Assembly: GCF_026151205.1 (NCBI RefSeq)
Contig: NC_087082.1
Coordinates: forward strand, 17,513,401-17,577,400
Source of the DNA: Bolinopsis microptera
Taxonomy: Eukaryota; Ctenophora; Tentaculata; Lobata; Bolinopsidae
Length of the DNA stretch: 64,000 nucleotides
Direction: 5' to 3'
Shown here: piece by piece, positions 741 through 59,993 of the stretch
Numbering within the stretch: position 1 is the first letter of the stretch
Layout of the letters: the number at the start of each line of letters is the position of its first letter
Made by a program: the position numbers and the translations under genes
Notes under the pieces: model-generated
Seen by the model: only the letters and a program-made list of their open reading frames with translations
Databases searched by the model: none
Told to the model about the DNA's origin: nothing

Positions 741-757
741 GTTGCTTCATAGATCCT

Positions 758-1945: not shown

Positions 1946-1964
1946 GAATCGTGGTGTTACATAA

Positions 1965-4900
1965 CTTATACCATAGGGTTACATACCATAATTAACTTTT
2001 TGGATACAATACTTTCAAATTCAGTAATAACTAGCAGGAACCCGTATGATATAACCCTAAAATGGTGTCAAGACTCAAGAAACTAAAATAATTATTACTT
2101 ATTTAATTGGCGTTTTTGACACCACTTGGGGGTCCAAATTTTTGGCATTAAAATCATTATTCCTTGGCCAATTTTTTATTTTTTCATACTGATTTGGAGG
2201 CCATTTAAGCATTTGACCCAGCTAAAAAAGTTTCAGTTGTATATCTTTTACGGTTTTTGCGGAAAGTCGCGTTAAAGTTGATGCCGTGGTGTCAGTAAAA
2301 TGGCACAGATATATATATATATATATCGTCTCGCTTTATATATAGTAAGATGGTGATAACAACTGTCGATAAGTTAGTAATTACAGCTAGCTTGACCTTC
2401 TTGTAAAGATAATGAGATCAACAAAACCTTAGAGTTACATTTGATCTTACTTGACACTCAATCAAACAATCAAATCTCTATCGAACCTGGCACATACAGC
2501 TCCTTTAAAAATTTTCACCAAATTAGGTCCACCCAGGTAGTCTAAATCTTGATACAATAGGAGTTTATCATATTAGGATTTAACAAGGTAACGAGATAAG
2601 GGTATCTCGGCTGTCATTCAAACCTAGTTTTGTTTCATAGGTTGGACCAGTCATGTGGGGGTAGATCTTGGCTCTGATTGGTCGGTCAGATGTCATGTGA
2701 GCAAAGGGGCGAATATTACTGGTTTATAGCTTGTTAGAGTGAAAAAGTGGGCCCATACTTGAAATACTTTGTCAATTTAGCGAGGGTAAAACATGGTTGA
2801 ACAGTTAATACTATCTAATATCTATAATCAATCTGACTCTATTATTGCCTGGTCCGTCTAATGACGCGAGATACAATGGCTGCGTCCGGTCGCACGGTGA
2901 TAGACTTCCCCCGCTCAAACGGCCCCATGATGATAGCCCGCGTAACTAGGTGTGACCTCACATGGTGCAATTTTGCCCAATAACTGAGCGCGCGACAGCG
3001 CAAACATGATGCTACAAAGTAACCTCTAGCATTACTGCAGACAATGAAGTCCGATAAGGGTTTACGCGTGTTGCTAAATTTAAGACTACGCGTAATGGCC
3101 CTGTTTCCCGTTTCTTGATGAAATAAGAATGTGCGAAGGGAGTTTTTGATGCGCGATTGGTTACTTTAGGTCACGCGGTTCTTATGGGTACTCTCGAGTG
3201 CGAGGTACGCGTTGCGCTCTCAGAAAAGTTTCATGAGGGGCCATGATAAACGTATCCTGTATGGGTTTATTGGCGTAATCTCATGAAATAGACGTGATAT
3301 TTGCAACAATATGGTCTGGAAGCCTCCTGGTCTGTTCAGCGCGCATTACATCACAGTATCTTCTCGACTCGGAATGTATCCGGTTATGCCTATCCTGGTT
3401 GCGAATTAACGAATCATTGTGTATCAAGGAATTAAAGTTTCTTGAGATACTTGCCCCACAGCCTTGAGTAAACGACATTAGATCAGGGATTATTTAGGCT
3501 TCGTTGATACCACAGATACTTTGTATCCGATGCATTTGTAGTCTCTCTCAATATAAGGTAAAAATAATAACATCTACATTGAATCAAAACTTTGATTATG
3601 AACAGAGGTTTTACATTGAAAACTGTCTACAGCATCCCACATAGAACATCTAATTTATCTACTTGCAAAACCTTTTACACGCAAGACGTCTTTAATATTA
3701 TATACCTCACCAAAACCTGGTTACAAATAGCTTTTATGCACAAAAGTTGTCTTCCATACCCCCACTAAAACCCAATAAACTTGTAGCAAAACGTGCAGAT
3801 AATACAAACCTGCCATTAGACGTCTGCCTATCACAAAACAGTCTTCTCATCCACGTGATCAGCCACGTGATCAATAACCACCAGTTAGAGGTCTCCTGAT
3901 AGGCAATTTCCCATGGGGTAGACAACCGGTCAATTGTTTGAGGACTTGAACTTGTGTTCCTCTGTGATCTAGTGACAGTTCGAGTCATGTCCTGGGATTG
4001 GTGGCTTTTAGACATGTGAGTTTGAGGGCGATTTCCTATTGGTGGCCATGTTTTAGATGAACGATTCTAAAGGAAGTTATTCGTGTAGAAACAATGGCAC
4101 GATTTAGGAATGGATACAATAGAACGACATTACCAATAGAGGACACTAGGAGAAGTGTAGAGCATGTATTGTGAATGCATGGGAAAATTATTGTTTTACT
4201 TCTTCTTCATTAAATGTACATTGAACTGTGAAAGTGAATGCTTCTGAATTCCGAACTAAAATTTAACCTACATCTAATGGCAGCTGTGTGAAACCTAATT
4301 TATAAGCTATCGAGTCAAACTATTGTTCATTCTAAAAGTAAGCCACACCAATACCATTCCATGCCTTACCCTAAGTTTTAATGTATTATAAGGTGTTGAC
4401 TGTTGACCTTTAAACTTTATTGAGTGATAAATATCTAGCGATAGGTACTCAGTGATAGGTACTCAGGACGGCATAGCGAGAGTAAGAACGTGTAGATTTA
4501 CACTGCAGGGTAACTGACAGACATCTTGTCCTGCGTGTCTACACGAGAAAGTGCTGATATATGGTGTAAAACTGTCATACAACATCGCTGAAATGATCAC
4601 TTGTACGAGCAGGAGCTCTACCAGATAAGCAGTTGGTGACATGTGCGGATAGTAGTCCGGGTGGTTTGAGTTGTGGTAAGCGCTTTATGAAGTTGTAAGG
4701 CTTTCGGCATACTTGAGATGGGTGGTAATGGAAAGACTGTAAAGCGTATCAAAGTTAAAGTTAACGCCCTAGACATGGTAGTGGCTGAACTTGTTCCCAC
4801 AGTAAGCTTGTAGAAGGTATAAGCTCACCACAATTTTGTGGGGATTGTAAATATGAAAATATTTCTTAGTTCTCATATACTAGATCCCCGATCAAATTAA

Positions 4901-5604
4901 CTCTGTGGGCCAACTTCCGTACCAAATTCGACTTGTTTTGGGTGCTTTGCGTTACGCGCATGGACTGAAGTATAATATCCAGGTGCGCCGAATGAAATTA
5001 CCCACATGGCTTACCCGCCGCGCGCATCAATCGCACTCTACTATATTAATACTGTATACTGTATACTCTGTTAGGGGTCGTTTACATATTACGATTATTT
5101 GTTGTAAAGACCCGTATAGAGCCACCTCTAAGGGCTTTGAGACAGTTTATTAAATATAATAATCAATAATATCGAAAGTCGTTTCAAAATATTTTCAAAC
5201 TCAAAGTTGAAATCACACTCACACTAAAAAGATCAATTATTTTGTCAAATAGTAAAAATTAAAAAAAACTCTCGACACATTATATATACAGTACGTGAGC
5301 ATGATTAGCATGCCTTTCATTTTATTTGTACCACTCAAGTCCCAGAACCTTTTATCTTTTAATTCTGCTTGCTATAGTTTGTTATAATATACGGCTATTC
5401 TAATTTCTAGAAATTTTCAAGCGTGACGATGAAAATTTTATCGCGAGAATTATCTTTAAGATTTAGTGCATTAAAAAGCCGCGCGGAGTGGGGTAAGGCT
5501 TGCTGTTATCAGCGCTTTGGCAGTGAAAAATATGCTGAAATATGTCAGTCCATTAAGCGAACGTTGTTTATTACTGCTCGTTTATTGTGTGTTTGCTGTC
5601 GTCC
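1965..5604. other. Intergenic region, no gene recognised
   Basis: No exon with a recognisable domain is seen on either strand. The stretch contains a short (TA)n run at about 2311-2327 and two nearby CACGTGATCA motifs at about 3853-3872. Open frames under 100 codons at 3281-3478, 3734-4015 and 4618-4905 have no family signature and look like chance. Confidence 0.4.
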
Positions 5605-5632: not shown

Positions 5633-5675
5633 CATGATTTAGCGATTATTGGTCGCTGTATTACTCAATCATCCC

Positions 5676-7118
5676 TCATCTATTGGACTTCCTCAAACCA
5701 GGTACGTTGTGTAGCAGAAATGCTGGCCAGCTGTCCTCTGAGTTAGCTAGTGTTGACTGTTGCTCAAGAAGCACGCGTTTTGCGTTCGATTTGTAAATAT
5801 TTATTGAAAATAAGCTAGGTAGGGACGTGATGTTCTTGTTGGTGTCTGTTAGAGCTAGTAAAGGTCCTTTAAAAAAGATGGATGCTTTGAAACATCGGTT
5901 ATTGTACGTATCTAGCCATTCGCTACTGTTCTCATGATTTGAACCATGCGTGGGTATGTTATCTGGAAACAAATTTCTAATTGATACAGGTACTGTGTTA
6001 GGAAAGTGCTTCATGCGGTGCATTAATGTAAGCGCATTCTTTACGATGATGCCGTGTATTGTCAAAATCTCAAATTTGCAGAATGCTTCTCTGGTGTGAG
6101 CTGGCAATTTGCCGTCTTTGTAAAAGTAATTTACATATCCTGGCATAACCATCCGCATTCCTTGCTTTTGTCTACGGAATAATGTCTCAATGTGACATTT
6201 TGCCGCGAATCCCCAGGCTAACGAGCAGTAGTTAACATGTGCCTCAATAAAACTATGGTAGAGTTGTAGTCGCACTTTTAGGGGCAGATGTCGTTTTAAT
6301 TTGAACATGATGCCTATGTACCTACTCATTTTTAATCTTACCGCTGTGATATGTTTACACCATGTTAGTTTCTCATCAATTATAACACCCAGAAACCGTG
6401 CCTCAGTAACCCGTTCAATGTTTGTTCCAGATATGTTGAGACTTATTTTGGAATAATCTACTTTACGGTTACTGAAGACCATATAGTGGGTCTTCTTCAG
6501 GTTTAAAGAAAGCCCGTTGCTACTTACCCAATTCACTAGAAGTGTTGCAATCATGGAGAGCTTACTTTGAATTTCTTCCTCGTTATGGCCCGTGACTATA
6601 ATATTTGCATCATCGGCGTAAAGTATGAACTTGGCCAGGTCTGAGATTCCGGGGAGGTCGTTTATATAGATGACGAAGAGTAGGGGGCCCAGAATAGAGC
6701 CTTGAGGAATACCATAATTGATCGTCTTGGGACTGGAATCAACCCCGTTGACTGTGACGAACTGATGACGATCGTGAAGATAGGAGTCGAACCAGCTTAG
6801 TGCTATACCTCTAATTCCGTAGTGTTCCAGTTTTTTAAGCAAAATTTTATGTTCAAGTAGGTCGAAAGCTTTGGAGTAGTCTAACAGTAGGAGCACCGCA
6901 ATTTGTTTCCTGCCAAGGTAATGAAGGATAGAGTTCTGTGCATTAAGAAGAGCATGCTCGCATGACATCCCCGGTCTAAAGCCGTATTGGCTTTCGAACA
7001 GAGAGCCGTTTTTATCAAGAAATTCAAGGACTCTAGTGTGCATTAACTTTTCGTAAATTTTTGAGAATGAGCTAAGAACTAGAAGAGATATGGGTCTATA
7101 GTTAGTGACATCTGTCTT
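5676..7118 (-). CDS. CR1/L2-like retrotransposon ORF2, reverse transcriptase (3' part, split by insertion)
   Basis: The frame is open from the edge of the palindromic insertion to the stop at 5676, about 480 codons. It begins KTDVTNYRPISLL, the fingers motif of non-LTR reverse transcriptases. It continues through YGFRPGMSCEHAL, LLDYSKAFDLLEHKIL (first catalytic Asp), GIPQGSILGPLLFVIYINDL, FILYADDANI (YADD box), LGVIIDEKLTWCKH and the usual C-terminal region. The 5' part of the same ORF lies beyond the insertion at 22635-24870, and removing 7119-22629 plus one GTCTT rejoins the frame at GGSKT/DVTNYRP. This 3' part has no stop. It would copy element RNA at a nicked target, but the copy is interrupted and cannot function as it stands. 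Confidence 0.92.
   Translation of the reverse strand, partial: KTDVTNYRPISLLVLSSFSKIYEKLMHTRVLEFLDKNGSLFESQYGFRPGMSCEHALLNAQNSILHYLGRKQIAVLLLLDYSKAFDLLEHKILLKKLEHYGIRGIALSWFDSYLHDRHQFVTVNGVDSSPKTINYGIPQGSILGPLLFVIYINDLPGISDLAKFILYADDANIIVTGHNEEEIQSKLSMIATLLVNWVSSNGLSLNLKKTHYMVFSNRKVDYSKISLNISGTNIERVTEARFLGVIIDEKLTWCKHITAVRLKMSRYIGIMFKLKRHLPLKVRLQLYHSFIEAHVNYCSLAWGFAAKCHIETLFRRQKQGMRMVMPGYVNYFYKDGKLPAHTREAFCKFEILTIHGIIVKNALTLMHRMKHFPNTVPVSIRNLFPDNIPTHGSNHENSSEWLDTYNNRCFKASIFFKGPLLALTDTNKNITSLPSLFSINIYKSNAKRVLLEQQSTLANSEDSWPAFLLHNVPGLRKSNR
7114..7118. repeat. Left 5-bp target site duplication (GTCTT)
   Basis: GTCTT directly precedes the outer end TATAATGGCG of the palindromic insertion. The identical GTCTT follows the other end at 22630-22634. 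Both copies lie in the host reverse transcriptase sequence, where a single copy is needed to keep the frame. Confidence 0.9.
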
Positions 7119-7128
7119 TATAATGGCG

Positions 7129-7375
7129 CAGGAGGGTCAACCTGAAAAGAACATTGCTTGACCCTCCTGCCCCACCGCATGGATCAGGAGGTTCATTTCA
7201 GAAACAGTGCTTGACCCTCCTGCCCCACCACATGGATCAGGAGGTTCATTTCAGAAAAAACAGTGCTTGACCCTCCTGCCCCACCACATGGATTACGGGG
7301 GTCACCCACAAAAACAGTGCTTGACCCTCCTGCCCCACCACATGGATTACGGGGGTCACCCACAAGACCATGTGC
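7129..7375 (+). repeat. Subterminal ~60-bp tandem repeats, left end
   Basis: Four copies of a unit containing TTGACCCTCCTGCCCCACC follow one another. The first two are spaced by a segment with GGATCAGGAGGTTCA, the last two by GGATTACGGGGGTCACCC. The very terminus (CAGGAGGGTCAA near 7129) is the reverse complement of the repeat core, so the element end can itself fold into a small hairpin. The mirror array is at 22376-22620. Confidence 0.85.
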
Positions 7376-9840
7376 GCTGCACTTATTTCTACATCGCGCG
7401 CGATACGTGTGTGCGTGATTACATGAAATATTACCGCGCCCTACGCCAAGTAGACGAAAAGCGTGGTCGAAGAGCGAGAGTCGGTACAATAAATAAAACG
7501 AGAGTTGGTACATTTAACTGGCATTTTTTAACCGTGGTACAATCAGAATTGAATACAGCCGACACAGGATGAGGGGGGGGGGGGGCAATGACTACTGATG
7601 GAGACTTTTGAGCACCAATGGGGACGAAAATCATAGGGACTGAAGGTCAAATCGCTGGTGAAATTTTCCATTTGTCCCCATAAGTACCCAAAGTTTTGGC
7701 GAGTTTTATGTAGTTTTGATATTATCTTTTATTAAATGACTTCTAAAGGAGACTTTTGGGTACCAATGGGGGCTAAAAATCTTGGAGACTTGAGGTTAAA
7801 TTGCTGGCGAAATTCTGCACTTGTCCCCAAAGTACCCAAAGTCATTGGCTCCCCCCCCCCCTCCCCCGGGTGAGGTGACGGAGAAAAATAAACTGAGCTC
7901 AAGGCTACATTTCCAGATATCCCGCCACGGCACCGTCGCTCATGCTGCAAAGTGTGTTGAGAGATGCCCACGTCATCACACGTAAACTGTGTCACGAATA
8001 CCTGAAATGCAGACGTGCAGAACAAACATAACTCTGATCTATATTTTTCATAAAACTTTCAGGATTTGCCAATGAGGGAAAAGACAGCACTGTCCGAGAA
8101 GCTAGAAATGCATGAATCATAGGTGACATGGATAGGGGTAAGAAGTTTTTTAAAAACATGAAAATTGTGAAAGGAAAAGAAGTAGAAATGAGAAAGGGTA
8201 GATTTAAAATGTTTGAGAATCGATTTTGTGCTGAAGAACTCCGTCCGCAGGACGGGCTTCCGGCTACTTATGATAATTCGAATAAATTTGAGATTCAAAC
8301 AAGCTACGAATACGAATGCTTATAGCAGTGGCAAGCTCTTGTTTGCTGCGCATTGGCTGCAATGTATAACCGCAGTATGAACTGTCAAAATATTTGAATT
8401 TGCTTACCTAGTGGCTTTGTTTGATAAAGCATACATACTTTATATACCGATAAATCAATAACTCCTTTTGATTCTTCGGTTTGAGAATTGTGCGGTCACA
8501 CATCTCTGCAATGTCTGAAAAGGTGGCAGGGAAGTATTGAAACTTACTTAACACTATATTTACAGTTAAACCTTGAACTACTATAACTAGGGCAGTAGGA
8601 AACGCCAAAAAGTAGATCATCTGACTAAAACAACTTAACTTCATCCAAGAGTCTAGTTAGCAGCATTGTAGCGATAAGATACCACCATAGTTTGAGCTGT
8701 CGACACTGAAATAAAACAAACAATTTACTTTTCACTACTGCAGGGGAATGCATGTAACATATAAAGAATAAAGATATAATATATTGTATGTTTTTCATCG
8801 TGGCCTCAGGGGAGAAGGGCAGCTCGAAAAACCGAAAAAAGTCTAAAAAACCGTGTTGGAGCTGGTGAGTTAAAGCTACCGATCTCGATCGTGAGAGTCA
8901 GATGATCAGATCGCATGTAACGTGAGTTTCGCCCGCCTGAATAAGGCAACATGAAATCATATTGCTGGTGACAGGTCTCGACCAAGATGTAAAATAAAGA
9001 TACCCCAAATTTGTTATTTTTAAGCCGATTCACATCGACCCAAGTCTCTGCTTTGACCCTAAATGCTCAAACTTCGTTAATAGATTGGAAAATCGTGTTA
9101 TGCTTGTTACTAATAACTGTTGTTTGTGAGAGGACATCTCGATTTCCCGGATCAGAGGATCACACCAATGAGGGGTTGATTGTGCATGTGTGAACTTGAC
9201 TAAATTTTCAAATTGCCCGATTTTTTTTCAGTAGGTCACATTACTCGTGACGTGCAAATGTATCTTTTGTCTTTTAATAGGTCAAGCTCAGAGCTTTAAA
9301 GCTTTAAAGACTTCTCCGTGACAAAGACGGCCGACATATATCTTTACTCCAGGAAAAGTCAGAACTCTTTCCACACCACATTCTTAAATGTACACGACAG
9401 CAGAACGACGATGTAGCCCCACGCCGCAGTAAACTTTAAATTTCTGACCCGGAACGAGCCCAGCAACTGTAGACAGCTGCGTGAGCTATGTACGGTTAGC
9501 AGATTTAAGAGCTTATGCAATAAGCAGTCACCGTTCACTCTCATTTTTGACTTTTCTTCTTTTGAACAACAAATGTCCATTGAATGATGCCAAGCTAAGC
9601 GATTATGATTAGAAAAGTACCGTGATTTACACTGATGGCTCATACAAGGACTTGTTGGACTTCGTGAATTTGGAGGACCTGCAGCTGTAATCAGTACTTC
9701 ACTACCAGATGTGCGAGGCCGAGGTTCCCGTTTGACAACATTACAAGTGGACCACCCAGGCCGGGATGATCACGCGCTAGTTGACATGAGATCTGATTCT
9801 CCCGGGAAAATTGGGCGAGATGACCGGTGTCCTGTCAGAG

Positions 9841-9900
9841 GTCACGGATACAAGGATACAAAAATATAAATATTTTATTGTACAATTACAATAGTCGTAT
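9841..9900 (-). repeat. 3' end of a non-LTR element with (TTGTATCC)n tail, left arm
   Basis: On the minus strand an AATAAAATATTTATA-like 3' end is followed by TTGTATCCTTGTATCC. The same arrangement is seen at 63583-63700 with a longer tail, and in the right arm at about 19880-19915. This is probably the end of an old retrotransposon copy nested in the palindrome. Confidence 0.55.
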
Positions 9901-11619
9901 AAACTTGACAAATTCGCCTACCATCACGTGACCCTCGTCAACGAGCAAGTGAAAAATGTGTTCACAGCATTTATATTATACGGTAACTACACCATAGATT
10001 GACAAGCTAAGCGTACAGAAAAACGTCCAACTCCTGACTATAATAAAACTCCGGTATAATAGCGTTTTTGACGGAGCAATTTAATGGCCTGGAGTAGGAA
10101 ACTTTGTTGACCGGAATAAATTGATCCGAAAGGCGAAAGATACATATGAGAGGCCATCATAAGATGGTACCAAAATATCTCTGTGAAAAGTCCTTTTTAC
10201 TTTTTTAAGCGTCAAAAGTCGGTGCACTTACTTTATCCATCGAAAAAAGGCATCCCCTGGTGGCTCGTAAAGTATCGATTTTAGCTGTCTAGTAGCCATC
10301 TTCTGTGCTCTCTGGCAGTCTAAGAAGAAACATTATTATATACGACTCTATACAAATAATCTTATTATAAAACAGGATCATACATAGTTAATAGAACTCC
10401 ATTAAGAAAACATCTTAACTACGTAATCTGTGCCTAGTACAACAGTTTCCAACACTTCCTACAGCTAGCAATATCCCTTATTTCATTTAAATCACTCAAA
10501 TTTCTAAGTTCTAAGTTTCTATATTTAAGGTCATCAACAAGCATATTTGATATAAGTTTGTATTAGGTCTACCAACACGCCCTTTAAATTTACCACTACT
10601 ATTTAACACAAATTTCTCTTTGTGATGAAAAAGTTTAAAGAAGCTTTACAACTTAACTCAAACTAATGCTTCTGTCTGTCTGCTGCATTTGAGTTTATTT
10701 CTAAATGATTCGCAGCTTTCGGTAGCTCCATGTTCAGCCCACCATGCCTGAAAAAATTTGGTTCACAATAACTTTGGTTCCCATAAATATTATGGTTACC
10801 ATAATATAAGTCACAAATTTTGTTAATTTCAAGTCAACAACAATATTAGTCGTATTTTTAAGACCATTTTTCCATATCATTTAATTTTTTTAAATTTATT
10901 CAGCTAGCTTTTTTGACTAAAATATTTTCGATCTGGGAAATTATTTAAAGACGAGTCAACATTACATACATCAATTACATAGCATCACATACATTTACCT
11001 ATAACACGCAGTAGCGACTTGTATAAATTTAACGATACTTAAATTCGTTAAATCATATATCATGTATATGCTCTGCTGAAATCTTAGTCTCCTTTAAAAT
11101 AAGTCCTCCCATGAAATTTAGTTTACAACAATTTTAGGCAATTGTTTGACTTAATTTATGGTATAATAGATTTTTCGTTCCTGAGGAAAGGGAATTTCGG
11201 CGGATATAGTAACACCAGAAAATATTGGTTTATGTAAATTGAGTTTACGTTGTTTATCAATGATTCGAGGGCACTGCAACGAGAATTAGAACAATTAATC
11301 AAAAATTACTGCCTAAACATTTAATGACCAAAACCTAACGAGCTTAACCTCTGTCACTCTTTTTCGGAGATTCAATATCATTTGACACAACTCTATGGAT
11401 TAACTATATGATTTTTTAAAATAGGAAAACTAATCTGGTTGTATCCTAGCAGAACTGATTATTATATACGTTAAGAACAGTGTCAGCTGGAATATTCAAG
11501 TAAGGTCATTTGTGTGCTTTCTTTTACAACAGAAACAAGGAATTGAAATATCATTGTAAACTAAAACTGACAAGGGTAATCATAACATAACATTGTGCTC
11601 ACAGTGTCACTCCATTCCT

Positions 11620-11945
11620 GAAAAAAGCCCATTTTCTTCCAATAAGACAACAAATAGAGTATAAGATTGCTCTAACCGTGTTCAAATGTGTCAACAACGT
11701 AGCTCCAAATTATATCACCAAATGCATCAACATTAAGAGTCAACCTGTACGTGTACTACGGACTGAACAAGACTATTTCCTCCTAAATGTTCCTACTGTT
11801 TCAAATTATAGTAAAACTGAGAGAAGCTTTAGTTACTGTGGACCCTTTGTTTGGAATCAGCTTCCTTAGCAATTGAGAACATTAACCGATATCGTCTTGT
11901 TTAAAAAGAGAATAAATACGCATCTCTTTGAAAAAGCATTCATAT
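11620..11945 (+). pseudogene. Decayed non-LTR reverse transcriptase C-terminus (left arm)
   Basis: The translation shows the usual tail of CR1/L2-type ORF2: QRIEYKIALTVFKCVNNVAP, then ERSFSYCGPFVWNQLP, a stop, and a further in-register remnant (LFKKRINTHLFEKAF). The catalytic domain is missing. The mirror copy is at about 17830-18150 on the other strand. Confidence 0.75.
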
Positions 11946-12397
11946 AAGTAGCATATAATAACTTTATCATAAAACCCAAACTTCATAAAAATAAGTTCTA
12001 ATGTACATATTCAATATTCATGAGTCGCTTTAGATGGCTTGAACTGAATCTTTACTTAGCTGTCATTAGTTTAGTGCTCAGTGTCAACAAGAATTGTCAT
12101 TATATTTTCCCTGTGATAATATTCAATTTCAAGTCAATATATCATAGTTATTGAATGCCTATATATATCCTGAAGTTAGGACTATGATTTGACCTGCCCA
12201 TCCCCTAATTTTGGAAGTTTATATGCTCCTATCGTGAAAATGAGGTTAATTGAATGAAGGCTTTCATGTTATTCTGTATTATCACGTCATCTTACATCAC
12301 ATTATCAGGTCCAGTATATCCATAATTAAGACACCAATTGAATAATGAATGTGAATTTGTTTAGAGAATAAAATTTAGGTCGAAAATTTTGATCTCT

Positions 12398-12442
12398 TCC
12401 CCCCCCCCCCCCCCCCCCCCCGCCCCCCCCCCCCCCCCGCCC
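12398..12442 (+). repeat. Poly-C run (left arm)
   Basis: A run of about 40 cytosines with two G interruptions. The mirror position in the right arm (about 17337-17371) is a poly-G run of different length, consistent with independent slippage or sequencing uncertainty. Confidence 0.9.
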
Positions 12443-13198
12443 CCTCTGGCCTTATTTCATTAAATCCATAACACCTGATCTTGAAGTTACTCACAAGGCG
12501 AGGAACATCCTAGCCTGTCCAGCATCTGGGAGGTCTACACAGGAAACAGTAGCTCATTTAGCTCTAGGTCACCAGGCTGTGACAGTAGTCTTGATGTCCA
12601 TTGTCCAACCAGTTCTGCGATTTACAGGTAACATCTAGGTAAATGAAATGAAATAATGAAATGAAATAAGAATAAGATTAAGTTGAATGTGCTTATGATG
12701 GGACCCCGGAGGGCAAGATCAGGTTATAATACTTGAATGACAATTCTAATGACAACCCAAAAATAGGAAGAGATCAAGAGGCAGGTCTATAGGAAGAGCT
12801 TAAATGTAGTAGAAATGTTACCTACCCTCCGAAGATGTATAAGTAAAGTAATAAAACAGCTCCCGCAGACTAATCTTTTTGGATGGAGATCTCGCTAGAG
12901 TAACATGTTACTTGGTTCAATCCAATAACATATAAAAATTAAAGAGTTTAAGAGTCCAAAATAGGAATTTAACACAAATATCTTATATTAAATTCATTCA
13001 CTGCAACAATCACTCCATAAAATCATGTAGGAGTATTGATAAGATTGAGTTCCAGATCACCTATATTGCTGTGGATGCTAAAATCCTGACACCTCTATAA
13101 CCCCTAAAAGAAACTATACATGTCATGGGTAATGGATATCATTAGTAGGTAGTTATTGCAAACAGAGTGCTACCAAGTGCCACGTCTTATGATTTTCT

Positions 13199-13745
13199 AG
13201 AAATCAGAAACAAAAAGTAAAACTCTAATCAAAATGCTGAGCAGGATGAAGCAAAGACTTGAAGAAAAACTAAGAGACAACCAGAATGGCTTCAGACCTG
13301 GTTGCTCTACAACTTCGCACATTCTTGTTCTGTGAAGAATTATATAGGGTCTAAAGAGTGTGAAGGCCACTATGATGTTTATAGATTTTAATAAAGCCTT
13401 TGACAGTGTACATAAAGGTTTGCTTATTAAGATACTTAAAGCAAATGGTATACCAGAATACATAGTGCGATTGATCTACACAAACACAGTGGCTTAAGTA
13501 ATCACAACTGCAGATGGTATTACAGGGGTCTTCGAGGTCCTGGTAGGATCAGGATTCGGGAGTACTGCAAAGAGACACCTCATACTTGTTCATCATCGTG
13601 ATTGACTATATCATGACAGTGGCTATAGATGATGACTCAGACTCTGGGTTCACTCTTAAGCCTGCACAGGGTGTAGATGGATTTGTGCTGAAAATATCGC
13701 ATATGTCAAATTCTCAGATGATGGTGCCCTTATCACTGATATAAT
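13199..13745 (+). pseudogene. Decayed RTE-like reverse transcriptase fragment (left arm)
   Basis: The translation shows NQNGFRPGCSTTSHILVL-like sequence and then MMFIDFNKAFDSVHKGLL, the first catalytic motif of a reverse transcriptase. ILKANGIPEYIVRLI follows, with stops and frameshifts later. The catalytic YxDD box is not recoverable. It is related to Craniata/RTE-type ORFs by eye only. The mirror copy lies at about 15700-16320, minus strand. Confidence 0.7.
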
Positions 13746-14698
13746 TGAATGGGGCAAAACTACTCCTGGACAGGCTATAGGAAGCAGCAAAAAGTGTGGG
13801 GGTTAGTCTTGAACAACTCTAAAACAAATCTCATGACTCTAAACACTACAGAGGAAAGTAGACTTTAAAGCTGTTCTGGAAACCAGCTGGAAAACGTACC
13901 TTGGGGGCATAGATATCAACAACTGAGAGAGACTTTAGAGAGACTTTCAAGAGCAACTATGAAGATCCAAGAGCGTAGGATGCAACTAGCTTTGCCATAT
14001 ACACTGCCACCTTGAACTAGTTGCTAAGTGTGGGGTACTTAATGAACCTAACCATGGTACGGTGTGCTGAGCAGGGGAAGAACAGTCATAACTTATGTTG
14101 ATAGCCTAAGGGCTGATACAGGTTTGAGTAACACTGGAGAAATCACGGGACTTATGGAGGATAGAAATCTATCGAGACAGTGCATCAATACTCGGACGCT
14201 GAAGCCTAAATTAAGAGAAGTTTAAAAGTTCACAATCATAATTATTATTTAAAATTGCCTCTAATAGCTACTGATAATCAGCTTGATAGTCGTCTTCCAG
14301 CCAGTTTATCAGAAATAAATAAAATGCAGAACCTAACAAAAGGACTAAAATAACTCCAAGATATTTTTCATGAAAATTACTAAATTTGCATTGGCGCTCG
14401 ATTCCAAAGGATTTTTGTTAATGATGCGTTGACAAAATGCGCGGCGCGGAAAAATTATCATTTGAAAATTGTTTGTTGTTCAAACATATTTCATAAAATA
14501 ATCTATAATATATAGTTCTAATAGTGTATAAAAAAGAATAATCTCAAAATATAACACTAAACAGAGCAAAAACGAGGATCGCGCAAAAATCATATCTATT
14601 TTAACAATTTCCGGGATTTGAACAGGAACCATGTTTATACATATAGTATAATTAACAAATTACGCAAACCCTAAATTTATTGATCCATAAATTTTTAA

Positions 14699-14756
14699 AT
14701 TCTTTATATTTTCGTATATAAAATTATTTTTGCAAACTATTGACCGGGGACTCTAC
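14699..14756. other. Loop (spacer) of the giant palindrome
   Basis: About 58 bp between the inner arm ends, which are TTGATCCATAAATTTTTAA on the left and its mirror on the right. The loop is AT-rich except for GACCGGGGACTC. It has no inverted partner. Confidence 0.7.
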
Positions 14757-15699
14757 AATTAAAAATTTATGGATCAAGATTTTAATGGTTTGCGTATTTT
14801 GTTTTCATATATTTAAATGGTTCCTATTTAAAATCGCGGAAATTGTCAAAATAGATATAATTTTGCGCGATCCTCGTTTTTGCTCTGTTTAGTGTTATAT
14901 TTTGAGATTATTCTTTTTTTATACACTATTAGAACTATATATTACAGATTATTTTATGAAATATGTTTGAACAACAAACAATTTCAAATGATAATTTTTG
15001 CGCGCCGCGCATTTTGTCAACGCATCATTAACAAAAATTCTTTGAATCGAGCGCCAATGCAAATTTAGTAATTTTCATGAAATATATCTTGGAGTTATTT
15101 TAGTCCTTTTGTTAGGTTCTGCATTTTATTTATTTCTGATAAACTGGCTGGAAGACGACTATCAAGCTGATTATCAGTAGCTATTAGAAGCAATTTTAAA
15201 TAATAATTATGATTGTGAACTTTTAAATTTCTCTTAATTTAGGCTTCAGCGTCCGAGTATTGATGCACTGTCTCGATAGATTTCTATCCTCCATAAGTCC
15301 CGTGATTTCTCCAGTGTTACTCAAACCTGTATCAGCCCTTAGGCTATCAACATAAGTTATGACTTTCTTCCCCTGCTCAGCACACCATGGTTAGGTTCAT
15401 TAAGTACCCCACACTTAGCAACTAGTTCAAGGTGGCAGTGTATATGGCAAAGCTAGTTGCATCCTACGCTCTTGGATCTTCATAGTTGCTCTTGAAAGTC
15501 TCTCTAAAGTCTCTCTCAGTTGTTGATATCTATGCCCCCAAGGTACGTTTTCCAGCTGGTTTCCAGAACAGCTTTAAAGTCTACTTTTCCTCTGTAGTGT
15601 TTAGAGTCATGAGATTTGTTTTAGAGTGTGTTCAAGACTAACCCCACACTTTTTGCTGCTCCTATAGCCTGTCCAGGAGTAGTTTTGCCCCATTCATTA

Positions 15700-16325
15700 T
15701 ATCAGTGATAAGGGCACCATCATCTGAGAATTTGACATATGCGATATTTTCAGCACAAATCCATCTACACCCTGTGCAGGCTTAAGAGTGAACCCAGAGT
15801 CTGAGTCATCATCTATAGCCACTGTCATGATATAGTCAATCACGATGATGAACAAGTATGAGGTGGTCCTCTTTGCAGTACTCCCGAATCCTGATCCTAC
15901 CAGGACTTCGAAGACCCCTGAATACCATCTATTCTGGTATACCATTTGCTTTAAGTATCTTAATAACTCTGACTTACTTCAGCGTCCGAGTATTGATGCG
16001 CTGTCTCCATAAAAACTCTATCCGCCATAAGTCCGCCCATTTCTCCAGTGTCGTTGAGACCCGTGTCAGCTCGTAGGCTATCAACATAAGTCATGGCTGG
16101 TCTTAATAAGCAAACCTTTATGTACACTGTCAAAGGCTTTATTAAAATCTATAAACACCATAGTGGCCTTCACACTCATGGCCTTTAGACCCTATATAAT
16201 TCTTCACAGAACAAGAATGTGCGAAGTTGGAGAGCAACCAGGTCTGAAGCCATTCTGGTTGTCTCTTAGTTCTTCTTCAGTCTTTGCTTCATCCTGCTCA
16301 GCATTTTGATTAGAGTTTTACTTTT
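15700..16325 (-). pseudogene. Decayed RTE-like reverse transcriptase fragment (right arm)
   Basis: Mirror copy of the fragment at 13199-13745. The segment YLFIIVIDYIMTVAIDDDSD is readable on the minus strand, as is an NKAFDSVHKGLL-type motif. It is rearranged by the inserted duplicate segment at about 15968-16100. Confidence 0.65.
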
Positions 16326-17336
16326 TGTTTCTGATTTCTAGAAAATCATAAGACGTGGCACTTGTAGCACTCTGTTTGCAATAACTACCTACTAATGATA
16401 TCCATTACCCATGTAACTTGTATAGTTTCTTTTATGGGTTATAGAGGTGTCAGGATTTTAGCATCCACATCATATATAGGTGATCTGGATCAATCTGATC
16501 AATTCTCCTACATGATTTTATGATGTGATTGTATGCTGACAGTGAATGAATTTAATATTTATTTGTGTTAAATACCTATTTTGGACTCTTAAACTCTTTA
16601 ATTTTTTAATTCTTGTTTTGGATTCGAAACCAAGAACATGTTACTCTAGCGAGATCCTCCATCCAAAAAGATTAGTCTGCGGGAGCTGTTTTATTACTTT
16701 TAACTTATACATCTTCGGAGGGTAGGTACATTTCTACTACATTTAAGCTCTTCCTATAGACCTGCCTCTTGATCTCTTCCTATTGTTTGGGTTGTCATAC
16801 AAGTAGACAGTTGGGTAACAGATCTTCAGCATCTATACTGACAAGTCCAAAGCAATGCAGCTATTTTGTTGTAGTATGTCAGTAAGGGAAGTTATTAATG
16901 CCTTTAAAACATTCCTTGGACCAAGAGGAAGATTAAGTGAGTGTGTAATGTCACCAGACAGTAACCACCAACTCTATTCAAAGATTCAAGATCCACTTGT
17001 CACAGAAAAAATATTCGAAGAGATTCCTTTCAGATATTATAGAATATAGTACATTAAAAATTCAAGGTGTTATATTTATTATAACCTGATCTTGCCCTCC
17101 GGGGTCCCATCATAAGCACATTCAACTTAATCTTATTCTTTACCTAGATGTTACCTGTAAATCGCAGAACTGGTTGGATCAATGGACATCAAGACTACTG
17201 TCACAAGCCTGGTGACCTAGAGCTAAATGAGCTACGGTTTCTGTGTAGACCTCCCAGATGCTGGACAGCTAGGGATGTTCCTCGCCTTGTGAGTAACTTC
17301 AAGATCAGGTTTTATGGATTTAATGAAATAAGGCAG

Positions 17337-17371
17337 AGGGGGGCGGGGGGGGGGGGGGGGGGGGGGGGGGC
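17337..17371 (+). repeat. Poly-G run (right arm)
   Basis: Mirror of the poly-C run at 12398-12442. The two lengths differ. Confidence 0.9.
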
Positions 17372-17829
17372 AGGATCAAAATTTTCGACCTAAATTTATT
17401 CTCTAAACAAATTCACATTCATTATTCAATTGGTGTCTTAATTATGGATATACTGGACCTGATAATGTGATGTAAGATGAACGTTGATATACAGAATAAC
17501 ATGAAAGGCCTTCATTCAATTAACCTCATTTTCACGATAGGTAGCATAGAAACTTCAAAATTAGGGGATGGGCAGGGTCAAATCATAGTCCTAACTTCAG
17601 GATATATATAGGCATTCGATGAACTATGATATATTGACTTGAAATTGAATATTAATCACAGGGAAAATATAATGACAATTCGTGTTGACACTGAGCACTA
17701 AACTAAGGACAGCTAAGTAAGATTCAGTTCAAAGCCATCTAAAGCGACTCATGATTATTGAATATGTACATTAGAACTTATTTTTATGAAGTTTGGGTTT
17801 TTATGATAAAGTTATTATATGCTACTTAT

Positions 17830-18150
17830 ATGAATGCTTTTTCAAAGAGTTGCGTTTTTATTCTCTTTTTAAACAAGGACGATATCGTAATGTTCTCAAT
17901 GCTAAGGAAGCTGATTCCAAACAAAGGGTCCACAGTAACTAAAGCTTCTCTCAGTTGTTACTATAATTGAAACAGTAGGAACATTTAGGAGGAAATAGTC
18001 TTGTCAGTCCGTAGTACACGTACAGGTTGACTCGTAATGTTGATGCATTTGGTGATATAATTTGGAGCTACGTTGTTGACACATTTGAACACGGTTAGAG
18101 CAATCTTATACTCTATTTGTTGTCTTATTGGAAGAAAATGGGCTTTTTTT
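17830..18150 (-). pseudogene. Decayed non-LTR reverse transcriptase C-terminus (right arm)
   Basis: Mirror copy of 11620-11945. The same C-terminal RT motifs are present with additional substitutions. Confidence 0.65.
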
Positions 18151-21100
18151 CAGAATGGAGTGACACTGTGAGCACATTGTTATGTTATGATTACCCTTGT
18201 CCGTTTTAGTTACAATGATATTTCAATTCCTTGTTTCTGTTGTAATAGAAAGCACACAAATGACCTTACTTGAATATTCCAATGACACTGTCTTAACGTA
18301 TATATAATCAGTTCTGCTAGGATACAACCAGATTAGTTTTCCTATTTTAAAAAATCATATAGTTAATCCATAGAGTTGTGTCAAAATGATATTGAATCTC
18401 CGAAAAAGAGTGACAGAGGTTAAGCTCGTTAGGTTTTGGTCATTAAATGTAGGCAGTAATTTTTGATTAATTGTTCTAATTCTCGTTGCAGTGCCCCGAA
18501 TCATTGATAAACAACGTAAACTCAATTTACATAAACCAATATTTTCTGGTGTTAGATATCCGCCGAAATTCCCTTTCCTCAGGAACGAAAAATCTATTAT
18601 ACATAAATTAAGTCAAACAATTGCCTAAAATTGTGTAAACTAAATTTCATGGGAGGACTTATTTTAAAGGAGACCTAGATTTCAGCAGAGCAATACATGA
18701 TATATGATTTAACGAATTTAAGTATCGTTAAATTTATACAAGTCGCTACTGCGTGGTATAGGTAAATGTATGTGATGCTATGTAATTGATGTATGTAATG
18801 TTGACTCGTCTTAAATAATTTCCCAGATCGAAAAGTATTTTAGTCAAAAAAGCTAGCTGAATAAATTTAAAAAAATTAAATGATATGAAAAATGGGTCTT
18901 AAAAATACGACTAATATTGTTGTTGACTTGAAATTAACAAAATTTGGTGACTTATATTATGGTAACCATTATATTTATGGGAACCAAAGTTTAGTGAACC
19001 AAATTTTTTCAGGCATGGTGGGCTGAACATGGAGCTACCGAAAGCTGCGAATCATTAGAAATAAACTCAAATGCGCAGACAGACAGAAGCATTAGTTTTG
19101 GAGTAAGTTGTAAAGGCTTCTTTAAACTTTTTCATCACAAGAGAAATTTGGTTAAATAGTAGTGGTAATTTAAAGGGCGTGTTGGTAGACCTAATACAAA
19201 CTTAGTTCAAAGATGCTTGTTGATGACCTTAAATATAGAAACTTAGACTTAGAAATTTGAGTGATTTAAATGAATAAGGGATATTGCTAGCTGTAGGAAG
19301 TGTTGGAAACTGTTGTACTAGGCACAGATTAAGTAGTTAAGATGTTTTCTTAATGAGTTCTATTAACTATGTATGATCCTGTTTTATAATAAGATTATTT
19401 GTATAGAGTCGTATATAATAATGTTTCTTTCTTAGACTGCCCAGAGAGCACAGAAGATGGCTACTAGACAGCTAAAATCGATTACTTTACGAGCCACCAG
19501 GGGATGCCTTTTTTCGATGGATAAAGTAAGTGCACCGACTTTTGACGCTTAAAAAAGTAAAAAGGACCTTTTCACAGAGATATTTTGGTACCATCTTATG
19601 ATGGCCTCTCATATGTATCTTTCGCCTTTCGGATCAATTTATTCCGGTCAACAAAGTTTCCTACGCCAGGCCATTAAATTGCTCCGTCAAAAACGCTATT
19701 AACCGGGAGTTTTATTATAGTCTAGGAGTTGGACGTTTTTCTGTACGCTTAGCTTGTCAATCTATGGTGTAGTTACCGTATAATTAAATGCTGGTGAACA
19801 CATTTTCCACTTGCTCGTTGACGAGGGTCACGTGATGGTAGGCGAATTTGTCAAGTTTATACGACTATTGTAATTGTACAATAAAATATTTATATTTTTG
19901 TATCCTTGTATTCCCGTGACCTATGACAGGAAACGGTCAACTCGCCCAAAATTTCCGGGAGAATCAGATCTCATGTCAACAGCGCGTGATCATCCGGCCT
20001 GGGTGGTCCACTTGTAATGTTGTTAAACGGGAACCTCGGCCTCGCCACATCTGTAGTGATAAGTACTGATTACAGCTGCAGGTCCTCCCAATTCACGAAG
20101 TCCAACAAGTCCTTGTATGAGCCATCAGTGTAAATCACAGTATTTTCCTAATCATAATCGCTTAGCTTGGCATCTTCAAGGACTTTGTTGTTCAAAGAAG
20201 AAAAGTCAAAATGAGAGGTGATACGGTGACTGATTAGCATAAGCTCATAAATCTGCTAACCGCTCACATAGCTCACGAGTGTCGACAGTTGCTGTGCAGG
20301 GCTCGTTCCGGGTCAGAAATTCTAAAGTTTACTGCGGCGTGGGGCTACAATCGTGTTCTGCTGTGTGTACATTTAAGAATGTGGTTTGGAAAGAGTTATG
20401 ACTTTTCTGGAGTAAAGATAGTTGTCGGCCGTCGTGTGTCACGGAGAAGTCTTGAAGCGTTAAAGCCTTCTGAGCTTGAACCTATTAAATGACAAAAGAT
20501 ACATTGCACGTCGACGAGAATGTGACCTACTGATAAAAAATCGGGCAATTTGAAAATTTAGTCAAGTTCACACATGCACAATCAACCCCTCATTGTGTGA
20601 TCCTCTGATCCGGGAAATCGAGATGTCCTCTCACAAACAACAGTTATTAGTAACAAGCATAGAACGATTTCCAATCTATTAACGAAGTTTGAGCATTTAG
20701 GGTCAAAGCAGAGACTTGGGTCGATGTGAATCGTCTTAAAAATAACAAATTTGGGGTATCTTTATTTTACATCTTGGTCGAGACCTGTCACCAGCAATAT
20801 GATTTCATGTTGCCTTATTCAGGCGGGCGAAACTCACGTTACATGCGATCTGATCAACTGACTCTCACGATCGAGATCGGTAGCTTTAACTCACCAGCTC
20901 CAACACGGTTTTTTAGACTTTTTTCGGTTTTTCGAGCTGCCCTTCTCCCCTGAGGCCACGATGAAAACATACAATATATTATATCTTATTCTTTATATGT
21001 TACATGCATTCCCGTGCAGTAGTGATAAGTAAATTGTTTGTTTTATTTCAGTGTCGACAGCTCAAACTATGGTGGTATCTTATCGCTACAATGCTGCTAA

Positions 21101-22375
21101 CTAGACTCTTGGATGAAGTTAAGTTGTTTAGTCAGATGATCTACTGTTTGGCGTTCCTACTGCCCTTGTTATAGTAGTTCAAGGTTAACTGTAAATATAG
21201 TGTTAAGTAAGTTTCAATACTTCCCTGCCACCTTTTCAGAGCATTGCAGAGAGGTGTGACCGCACAATTCTCAAACCGAAGAATCAAAAGGAGTTATTGA
21301 TTTATCGGTATATAAAGTATGTATGCTTTATCAAACAAAGCCACTAGGTAAGCAAATTCAAATATTTTGACAGTTCATACTGCGGTTATACATTGCAGCC
21401 AATGCGCAGCAAACAAGAGCTTGCCACTGCTATAAGCATTCGTATTCGTAGCTTGTTTGAATCTCAAATTTATTCGAATTATCATAAGTAGCCGGAAGCC
21501 CGTCTGCGGACGGAGTTCTTCAGCACAAAATCGATTCTCAAACATTTTAAATCTACCCTTTCTCATTTCTACTTCTTTTCCTTTCACATTTTCATGTTTT
21601 TAAAAAACTTCTTACCCTATCCATGTCACCTATGATTCATGCATTTCTAGCTTCTCGGACAGTGCTGTCTTTTCCCTCATTGGCAAATCCTGAAAGTTTT
21701 ATGAAAAATATAGATCAGAGTTATGTTTGTTCTGCACGTCTGCATTTCAGGTATTCGTGACACAGTTTTACGTGTGATGACGTGGGCATCTCTCAACACA
21801 CTTTGCAGCATGAGCGACGGTGCCGTGGCGGGATATCTGGAAATGTAGCCTTGAGCTCAGTTTATTTTTCTCCGTCACCTCACCCGGGGGAGGGGGGGGG
21901 GAGCCAATGACTTTGGGTACTTTGGGGACAAGTGCAGATTTCGCCAGCAATTTAACCTCAAGTCTCCAAGATTTTTACCCCCAATGGTACCCAAAAAGTC
22001 TCCTTTAGAGTCATTTAATAAAAGATAATATCAAAACTACATAAAACTCGCCAAAACTTTGGGTACTTATGGGGACAAATGGAAAATTTCACCAGCGATT
22101 TGACCTTCATCCCTATGATTTCGTCCCCATTGGTGCTCAAAAGTCTCCATCAGTAGTCATTGCCCCCCCCCCCCCTCATCCTGTGTCGGCTGTATTCAAT
22201 TCTGATTGTACCCACGGTTAAAAAATGCCAGTTAAATGTACCAACTCTCGTTTTATTTATTGTACCGACTCTCGCTCTTCGACCACGCTTTCGTCTACTT
22301 GGCCGTAGGGCGCGGTAATATTTCATGTAATCACGCACACACGTATCGCGCGCGATGTAGAAATAAGTGCAGCGC

Positions 22376-22620
22376 ACATGGTCTTGTGGGTGACCCCCGT
22401 AATCCATGTGGTGGGGCAGGAGGGTCAAGCACTGTTTTTGTGGGTGACCCCCGTAATCCATGTGGTGGGGCAGGAGGGTCAAGCACTGTTTTTTCTGAAA
22501 TGAACCTCCTGATCCATGTGGTGGGGCAGGAGGGTCAAGCACTGTTTCTGAATGAACCTCCTGATCCATGCGGTGGGGCAGGAGGGTCAAGCAATGTTCT
22601 TTTCAGGTTGACCCTCCTGC
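22376..22620 (-). repeat. Subterminal ~60-bp tandem repeats, right end
   Basis: Mirror of the left-end array: four units with GGGGCAGGAGGGTCAAGCA, followed by GGTTGACCCTCCTGCGCC at the terminus. Unit number and order match the left end. Confidence 0.85.
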
Positions 22621-22629
22621 GCCATTATA

Positions 22630-22634
22630 GTCTT
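22630..22634. repeat. Right 5-bp target site duplication (GTCTT)
   Basis: Identical to 7114-7118. The sequence beyond it (ACTACCTCCCTTGTGG, minus strand IHKGGSKT) is the host retrotransposon ORF. Confidence 0.9.
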
Positions 22635-23200
22635 ACTACCTCCCTTGTGGATAGGGATTACGCGTGCAGTTTTAAGAGCAGTTGGAAATATGCCCTGTGT
22701 AAATGATGAGTTTATGATAGTAGAAATCACACCGGTGAACTTGCTATCATGGTTTGCGACTTTCATCGGCCCCCAATTTTGGTATCCAGTGTTGCCTTAT
22801 TCTTAAATTTTAGAATCACCTCACTCACCTCAGTTGGTGTTACCGGCCTAAGATACATCGAATTCGATGTTGGGTTCCTAAGATATCTACTAAAACCCCC
22901 CACTATCAAAAGTTTTGTCTAGCACTGATCTGTGCTTTATTGTTTGAAGCTATATTTGAGAAGTAGTGTTAAATTATGCTGCAACCTCGGTGCCATTGCT
23001 GATAATAGATCCGTCGTCGCCTTTCAGTTTTATAGAATTTTTTTCTTTCAACTTCCTGTTCAACAGCGTGTTAATCATTTGCCATTGCTTTTTAGAGTTC
23101 TCACAATGCCTCGTCAAAAAATTTCCTTATAATATTTTGCTTTAGCTAAGTCAATGTGCCTTGTTGCAGAATTTATCAATTTTTCATACGCTTCATCATT
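22635..23200 (-). pseudogene. CR1/L2-like ORF2, region just before the reverse transcriptase
   Basis: The minus-strand translation ends FPTALKTARVIPIHKGGSKT, the invariant start of the RT domain that continues at 7118 beyond the insertion. Further upstream PVTPTEVSEVILKFKNKATL and NSIKLKGDDGSIISNG are readable as linker sequence, separated by frameshifts and stops. The copy is therefore inactive on this side. Confidence 0.8.
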
Positions 23201-23499
23201 GCCTTGGTTGAAGTTGTGATTTTTAGGTGGTGGAGCTTATGCCTTCGCGCACACGCATCCTCTAGCCAGGGAAGAATCCAAGGTTTTGGATCTCTTCGTT
23301 CATTTTTTCGCCCGCGGCCTGGATTTGTTCAAGGGGTATGCCTCAACATAATGTTTGGTGTAATTTCACAACATTTTTCGTACTGTACTTCACAATTTTC
23401 GTGTGAACTCACTTCACTCCAGTCCTCACTTTCGATCAAACTTTTGAAATTTAGCATTGTTAGCTTCGCCAAATCTCCGTGCCTGTTTGATACTTGGTT

Positions 23500-24250
23500 T
23501 TTTACTTGTAACCCCTCCCGCATGGCCCCTCTCTGTCCCCAAGTAGAAGCGTAGTAAGGGTGGCTAGGTGGTCTGATACGTGTAGAGTAAGCACCTGACA
23601 ACTTGCCGTGTTCTTGATATCATTAGAATACACGTGGTCTATGAGTGTTGCACTGTGGTCTGTAATTCTGGTGGGCCTTGAAATCATTTGAACGAAACCG
23701 TAGTTTTCAAAAGTTGCAACAAGGTTCTGACTGTGCACGTCCTTATCGTATTTTATTAGATCAATATTGAAGTCACCCGTGAATAAAATGTGTTTACGTG
23801 AGTGCCTGTCTAGGCTTCTAAGTACATTATCTAGCAGTTTCATGAACTTATCAACATTTACGCGATGGTGAGCGGTAAACTTGATTAGTAGCTTGGTCTT
23901 GTTAAAACCTTTGCAGTTGTGGATTTTTATAATTGAAATTCACCACTTGTTTCTTCTCACAGCTGAAGTGTGGCCTGTAATGTTCTATTTGCTCCTCTGT
24001 ACATACCTGTCTATTTACGTATAACACCAGTCCACCCCCACGGCCAGATGCACGTGCTGGTTCCTGTATTATCGGCTCATGAAATCCCTCTAGAAGTATG
24101 TCATAATACCGTTAGGTAGCTTACTTAGAGCGCAGTTTGTTTCATTGAAACTCAGTATATCGTAATTTAGATACGTGTGAATTTCTTCTCGGAAATGAGT
24201 TATGTTTTTGTGTAAAGATCGTACGTTTAATGAAAAACTTTTAGTTCATT
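23500..24250 (-). pseudogene. CR1/L2-like ORF2, AP endonuclease domain
   Basis: The minus strand shows YDILLEGFHEPIIQEPARAS and GRGGGLVLYVNRQV. After a frameshift near 23900 it shows KHILFTGDFNIDLIKYDKD (the GDFN motif of APE-type endonucleases), SRPTRITDHSATLIDHVYSN and LHVSDHLATL (the SDH catalytic motif). The order and motifs are those of the target-nicking endonuclease of non-LTR elements. Frameshifts make it non-functional as sequenced. Confidence 0.85.

Positions 24251-30359: not shown

Positions 30360-59993
<29,634 letters not shown>

Follow-up and report, generated by a model that had tools for sequence, protein, structure and literature searches.

A 15.5-kb palindrome in the genome of the ctenophore Bolinopsis microptera as a probable copy of a foldback-type DNA transposon family

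We analyzed a 64,000-nucleotide stretch of the genome of the ctenophore Bolinopsis microptera (RefSeq assembly GCF_026151205.1, contig NC_087082.1, positions 17,513,401 to 17,577,400; hereafter the window), in which a 15,511-bp palindrome interrupts the reverse transcriptase gene of a long interspersed nuclear element (LINE). We conclude, with a probability of about 0.85, that the palindrome belongs to a nonautonomous, recently active foldback-type DNA transposon family, in which the transposing unit is the whole ~15-kb palindrome, comprising two ~7.6-kb arms and a loop of ~58 bp. The palindrome itself appears to have transposed, because other copies share both its loop and the differences between its two arms (types A and B); several copies are nearly identical, and so recent. 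The genome searched comprises 264.65 Mb in 232 contigs, and the window is C11:17513401-17577400 in the contig numbering used here.

The palindrome spans positions 7119-22629 of the window, has the ends TATAATGGCGCAGG, and is flanked by GTCTT on either side. Its arms can be aligned from both ends inward to the center: in BLAST, 7119-12647 matches 22629-17136 at 96.3%, and 13512-15930 matches itself at 94.8%. More than half of the left-arm 20-mers (4,159 of 7,581) are present in the reverse-complemented right arm, compared with none for a shuffled sequence or for one other piece of the window. Around the loop lies ~100 bp of imperfect pairing, and the 52- to 53-bp subterminal repeats are confined to the first ~230 bp of each end. 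Scans of the window for tRNAs and Rfam families (gathering threshold) gave no matches. The features are as follows.

5679-7118, minus strand: downstream part of the host LINE reverse transcriptase open reading frame (ORF), which is split by the element
7114-7118, no strand: left copy of the target-site duplication GTCTT; LINE paralogues show the empty site
7119-14697, plus strand: left arm, A type, beginning TATAATGGCGCAGG; inner boundary approximate
7124-7174, plus strand: small hairpin within the terminus, with a 13-bp stem and three outer pairs (z = -5.17 versus shuffles)
7144-7347, plus strand: subterminal tandem array, 53-bp unit, 3.7 copies
13228-13476, plus strand: degraded fragment of a reverse transcriptase, nested within the arm (RVT_1, E = 2.5e-6; 27.8 bits, against a curated cutoff of 29.6)
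14698-14756, no strand: unpaired loop, boundaries approximate and set by eye; this center is found again in other copies
14757-22629, minus strand: right arm, B type, with the B replacements and many private differences, the latter judged to be consensus error
22402-22598, minus strand: mirror subterminal tandem array, 52-bp unit, 3.6 copies
22630-22634, no strand: right copy of the target-site duplication GTCTT; LINE paralogues show the empty site
22630-23939, minus strand: upstream part of the host LINE, with the remainder of the reverse transcriptase segment and an endonuclease domain

Excision of the palindrome together with one GTCTT reopens the reverse transcriptase frame, which then reads ...HKGGSKTDVTNYRP... 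across the junction. At least 16 LINE paralogues match this rejoined site at 95 to 96%, 15 of them across all 162 bases and one across 152, among the 40 of 44 candidates that were scored; further matches lie at 69 to 74%. Three paralogues were aligned. Two are identical to the rejoined site across the junction, with a single GTCTT and a 6-bp difference away from it; the third is in the opposite orientation and was compared unturned. Sequence of the host LINE outside the palindrome was found again, whole or partial, at 16 other loci. Judged from these alignments, the paralogues represent the empty site of the insertion in the window. The original prediction, made from the letters of the window, had described a 15.5-kb palindrome with a 5-bp target duplication, a loop of about 58 bp, and an exactly rejoinable host frame, and all of this holds (the loop within the approximation of its boundaries).

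The palindrome belongs to a dispersed family. Its first 382 bp were found at 43 or more places, mostly as facing pairs, among the 40 of 51 candidates scored, and the 22-base terminus, with up to three mismatches allowed, marks 50 genomic ends compared with 1 in a reversed control. A 581-bp probe from within the arm gave 37 matches (all 37 candidates were scored) at 20 loci, and 32 of these form 16 facing pairs, so that 16 of the 20 loci are two-armed; a count of palindromic copies was among the checks proposed with the original prediction. The remaining five matches are on a short contig (C146), at C9:2.097 Mb, in an old copy at C11:12.05 Mb, and in two fragments at C1:12.866-12.868 Mb. Both ends are present in 15 copies. 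The sixteenth two-armed locus, C6:19.97 Mb, is outside this two-ended count, its left terminus being missing in the pattern search. Besides the window copy, nine copies were fetched along their length (C7a, C6a, C5, C4, C2a, C6b, C9, C1, and C7b), as were both ends of C10, C3, C2b, C6c, and C12, some single ends, and inner parts of C12, C6c, and C3. Arm sequence stands on both sides in all nine copies fetched along their length, with C7b matching in the outer arms only.

Eleven loci with a single end were also fetched, nine of which share one common flank of 30 bp, which is shorter by three bases at one locus. These nine (L029-L036 and L038, on C1, C3, C6, C7, C8, and C9) are copies of a separate ~2-kb repeat that contains an end of the palindrome family behind the constant flank; by eye, several carry an ORF whose paired CxxC motifs look like zinc fingers of the RanBP2 type. 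The other two are short terminal fragments joined to other repeats. On C41 (L073), a palindrome end is followed, ~0.5 kb in, by a G-rich tract.

The center of the palindrome is shared as well as its ends. A center probe found turning points at the palindrome loci and in older relatives, on C11 at 86 to 89% and, more diverged, at C6:3.97 Mb; these counts are a lower bound, with 40 of 142 candidates scored. The 160-bp center is 100% identical in C2a, C4, C5, and C9 (in C9 split over two pieces), 95.6 to 98.1% identical in C6b, C1, C6c, C12, and C3, and 88% identical in C7a. The off-center loop was seen again in every nonwindow copy whose center was read (10 of 10). Two old family centers lie 8.2 kb apart at C11:12034508-12043994, with 86 to 89% identity to the probe, and part of the inner arm (window 14100-14206) is also a dispersed short repeat, found at more than 15 other places with 82 to 83% identity.

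Perfect duplications of exactly 5 bp flank nine of the 15 two-ended copies (GTCTT, CAAAC, GTAAG, GTAGC, CTGTT, CATAG, GTTAC, GATAC, and ATTGT), and none is longer. As a control, the left and right flanks of different copies were paired, and 5 bp agreed in 2 of 210 pairings. With these duplications and the many palindromic copies, a foldback-type transposon with unusually long arms, one of the two explanations first proposed from the sequence, is supported. The duplications begin with GT or end with AC in 7 of 18 chances, compared with ~1 expected (P of about 1e-4 by flank resampling). We treat GT..AC as a tendency only, because the motif was chosen after the nine sites had been viewed.

The two arms of a copy are of different types. 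One A-type and one B-type arm are present in seven of nine informative copies (C7b was left out of the typing as uninformative), the A arm being on the left in the window, C4, C2a, and C1 and on the right in C5, C6b, and C9. The B arm is marked by two replacements, of ~340 for 105 bp and of 170 for 79 bp, which are sometimes enlarged or overlaid by further changes. Nested insertions are distributed differently: an insert of ~495 bp is in both arms of C7a (in the right arm across a piece break), C6a, and C9 and in one arm of C5, and a 584-bp insert is in one arm of C4 and one of C6b. That nested insertions are unequal between the arms of one copy and shared across copies suggests mosaic exchange.

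Outside the loop region, the arms of most copies are nearly identical. Substitutions between the outer arms of one copy number 0 of 4,089 positions in C4, 1 of 4,090 in C5, 1 of 2,942 in C6a, 2 of 3,139 in C7a, 4 of 4,086 in C1, 1 of 919 in C7b, 9 of 3,538 in C6b, 18 of 4,059 in C2a, 112 of 4,033 in C9, and 159 of 4,042 in the window. The clean arms of different copies are also close, many pairings differing by 0.00 to 0.15%, and the window left arm shows 0 of 4,086 substitutions against both C4 arms. We sorted variable sites into those that are copy specific (both arms of one copy against both of the other), those that are shared A/B differences, and others, along the arm in C4, C5, and C1 and in inner segments only in C3 and C12. 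Between C4 and C1, the outer 4,343 positions (400-5180) hold 6 copy-specific, 0 shared A/B, and 4 other sites; the intermediate zone (5640-7250, one segment not comparable) holds 2, 0, and 7; and the innermost 285 positions by the loop hold 0, 10, and 6. For C4 and C5, the corresponding counts are 1, 0, and 1 in the outer arm, 0, 5, and 0 in the intermediate zone (two segments not comparable), and 0, 14, and 1 next to the loop. C3 and C12 have eight loop-proximal A/B sites in common with C4, C12 in the opposite orientation. Since outer-arm changes are matched across arms and loop-proximal ones are not, the straightforward interpretation is gene conversion between the arms, and near-identical outer arms with retained A/B differences at the loop form, as far as such comparisons can tell, a pattern of concerted evolution.

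A minority of arms are noisy. In the window, the right arm differs from the left by 159 substitutions and 74 indel columns over 4,042 positions, mostly private to the right arm, and the C9 left arm has 113 substitutions relative to C4; when these two arms are compared with each other, their divergence (6.76%) is about the sum of both, with no common pattern. C2a-R and C6b-L are noisy in parts, and the C2b right arm matches the 581-bp probe at 86%, versus 99% for the left. Over 5.5 kb of the window right arm, 55 of 75 deleted bases adjoin the same base, as 48% of all bases do, and transitions make up 71 of 196 substitutions, near the third expected of random error. The 4% divergence between the window arms looks like consensus error, a reading we adopt for the noisy arms because the arms of one insertion share one age. 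Arm divergence was also considered as a clock and rejected: the arms are of the same age, yet the left shows 0 and the right 159 substitutions relative to C4.

Several observations weigh against the interpretation of the palindrome as a transposing unit with homogenized arms. The noisy arms, 4 of the 20 compared (the window right arm, C9-L, and parts of C2a-R and C6b-L), are all of B type, a bias not expected from chance error. Two of the nine informative copies, C6a and C7a, have no clean A/B pair, being mixed or unclear, and the B arm of C1 carries the second B marker only. The palindrome of C6a has no innermost part, and the fetched pieces of C7b contain no center. C9 and C6a have duplications of 4 bp only, the left terminus of C6a being trimmed by 7 bases; in C2a the duplication (GTAAT) lies two bases out of place; and no duplication is seen at C4, C5, or C12, the last having an altered right terminus. 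If the assembly placed a single collapsed arm on both sides, that could account for part of the arm identity within copies; counter to full collapse, the arms within one copy are distinguished by nested insertions. Finally, mobilization in trans is something we infer, with no partner or transposase found. For the three copies lacking duplications, exchange between copies may, by analogy with the transposon Galileo, be the explanation. Galileo copies without matching duplications are known (PMC3573991), and its duplications are described as exchanged at inversions and attributed to ectopic recombination (PMC2775673). An exchange between C4 and C5 themselves gave no match by eye.

In the mechanism that we favor, a transposase supplied in trans would recognize the terminal sequence, and probably also the 53-bp subterminal repeats, at both ends. 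It would move the entire palindrome and insert it with a 5-bp stagger, leaning to GTNAC-like sites. Gene conversion, both from arm to arm and from copy to copy, would exchange sequence among the outer arms and so keep them identical, and the loop-proximal ~0.3 kb would escape this exchange and keep its ancestral A/B differences. The asymmetric center is perhaps what renders so long a palindrome tolerable. We also offer, tentatively and as a rather unlikely extension, the proposal that the element normally exists, is inherited, and is able to transpose as a 15-kb palindrome, a form older than the recent burst, with outer arms evolving in concert within each copy and the asymmetric center kept in most copies for the sake of tolerance; in its boldest form, the element would be moved or copied via a self-paired hairpin.

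The original prediction had seen no known transposase, and a domain scan of the six read-through frames of the window left arm bears this out: no transposase was recognized, the matches being one degraded reverse transcriptase and one chance-level match (E = 0.048). Among ten open frames scanned, nine from other copies and one from a window arm, three matched FLYWCH, two matched reverse transcriptases, one matched a PHD finger with a 2-oxoglutarate (2OG) oxygenase, and four had no match. By eye, no transposase was noticed in the portions read of the large copies C12 (16.5 kb), C6c, and C3 (9.9 kb each), where the extra sequence looks like nested retroelements. The autonomous partner with the same ends that had been expected was not found with either of two terminus patterns. 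The 22-bp pattern with up to three mismatches gave none; an exact 12-bp pattern also gave none, the excess of its 68 hits over the 33 in a reversed control being made up of known family ends; more diverged ends would escape both. A side observation concerns the frame with the PHD finger and 2OG-Fe(II) oxygenase (AlkB-like) domains at L009:7537-8994, identified by Pfam in L009 only. ORFs at L040:3193-4938 and L045:210-2327 resemble it by eye, and it precedes endonuclease/reverse transcriptase-type frames (by eye) of an apparent nested retroelement without long terminal repeats (non-LTR); the presence of an oxygenase there seems unusual.

Who supplies the transposase bears on two explanations, both of which we consider improbable. 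The first is that a P-superfamily, Galileo-like enzyme moves the family, with its stagger shortened to 5 bp. The architecture is like that of long-TIR (terminal inverted repeat) Galileo copies without transposase, and the Galileo target GTATTAC/GTANTAC, as given in PMC4168063, is like the GT..AC tendency, itself 7 of 18 ends and chosen post hoc. This likeness is weak, coming from nine sites; the six read-through frames of the window left arm contain no P or THAP domain; and the duplications are 5 bp in 9 of 15 copies and never longer, rather than 7 to 8 bp. Slightly less probable still is a Mutator-type (MULE) transposase with the FLYWCH ORF as its remnant. PMC4079207 suggests this superfamily for most foldbacks, the FLYWCH ORF is present in the C5 left arm and both C6a arms, and the copy at C6:19.97 Mb holds a 1.3-kb segment from the DNA of this ORF twice, in opposite orientations. 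Against it, 5-bp duplications again stand in place of the 8 to 11 bp of Mutator elements, pieces of the FLYWCH segment are scattered at many places outside the palindromes, and the segment is missing from the outer arms of 7 of 10 compared copies, within the coverage available (C7b-L only to 1744). The FLYWCH ORF had been considered as the transposase of the family itself and was set aside as a dispersed repeat, because its pieces occur at many other places.

Spread via a self-folded hairpin or an extrachromosomal intermediate, with one strand paired to itself instead of double-stranded cargo, seems to us very unlikely. It would fit arms that are identical except by the loop, as hairpin repair could yield, and the failure to see a transposase in the scanned window left arm. 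The 5-bp duplications, in turn, fit ordinary cut-and-paste transposition, and gene conversion accounts for arm identity. We give even less credence to an assembly artifact, whether from foldback reads or from a collapsed arm written twice. Palindromes are difficult to assemble, some arms are rich in private indels (as the C2b right arm and the error profile of the window right arm illustrate), and local collapse in the outer arms could mimic gene conversion. A foldback read would mirror the flanks, though, and the window flanks differ and rejoin a LINE ORF; moreover, within a copy the two arms are told apart by nested insertions and by loop-proximal differences common across copies. The least credible explanation is a smaller TIR element that turned palindromic at its site after inserting, local inverted duplication being a frequent origin of large palindromes: this second branch of the original prediction would require an identical inverted duplication at each site, and it is excluded for the window locus by the same center and A/B differences on other scaffolds, with facing arms at 16 loci.

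In eukaryotes, palindromes of great length with short loops are generally regarded as unstable, and this family is dispersed over many scaffolds despite that presumed instability. It constitutes a set of replicated natural copies of one palindrome, on which replication, recombination, and arm homogenization could be tested. Any transcription of a copy across the loop would produce a very long double-stranded RNA, possibly a trigger of small-RNA silencing.

Elsewhere in the window are two candidate host genes close to the palindrome, a lipoxygenase-like ORF (40029-41891) and a C2H2 zinc-finger ORF (62007-63167). There are also two tandem arrays, a long one with a 52-bp period, near-identical units, and strong AT skew (44063-47021) and another with a 46-bp period (56421-57893). 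One kilobase (29001-30000) is strongly G skewed (GC skew of 0.69); this and the G-rich tract on C41 are possibly sequencing or assembly features.

Compared with known systems, the family has the features of the foldback class: very long TIRs that make up most of the element, subterminal tandem repeats inside them (52- to 53-bp unit, 3.6 to 3.7 copies, at both ends), and independent insertions with target duplications (in 9 of 15 copies). Polinton/Maverick elements carry polymerase, integrase, and capsid genes and make 6-bp duplications; no such domains were found in the window left arm, and the duplication is 5 bp. Transib elements make 5-bp duplications, as here, and have termini beginning CAC(A/T)GTG, which the family ends, TATAATGGCGC, do not. 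Nor do these ends, which begin TATAA, agree with the TGTNR termini given for Ginger2/TDD, which makes duplications of 4 to 5 bp (PMC2836005). Among the matches listed by our full-text searches, which left out subscription papers and Repbase, we met no transposon family whose regular form is a palindrome this large.

Sex-chromosome palindromes, such as those of willow (PMC7023750), resemble the family in that their arms are kept alike by gene conversion, but those described there lie in a sex-determining region, whereas the palindromes studied here are dispersed with target duplications. Tetris and Tm1 likewise have long composite TIRs with internal tandem repeats (PMC4079207; PMC3169594). Their duplications are 8 to 10 bp in Tetris (PMC4079207) and mostly 9 bp in Tm1 (PMC3169594), in contrast to the 5 bp seen here, and the authors assign them to or compare them with Mutator; one Tm1 element is 1,080 bp long (PMC3169594), versus 15.5 kb for the palindrome, and for Tetris PMC4079207 reports that no transposase-coding copy was found.

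The nearest precedent is a long-TIR copy of Galileo, as described in PMC4168063. Copy 112 of Drosophila willistoni is 9,021 bp long, has TIRs of 4,246 and 4,680 bp, and lacks a transposase; like the palindrome, it is nearly all TIR, with nested elements and tandem repeats in the TIRs, identical target duplications, and a GT..AC target. Our family differs in its 7.6-kb arms, in having no transposase-bearing relative among the sequences found, and in its 5-bp duplication, that of Galileo being 7 bp and in a few cases 8 (PMC4168063). It differs also in how regular this form is: significantly extended TIRs are rare in Galileo, occurring in three copies among 191 (PMC4168063), whereas the palindrome family is two-armed at 16 of its 20 arm-probe loci.

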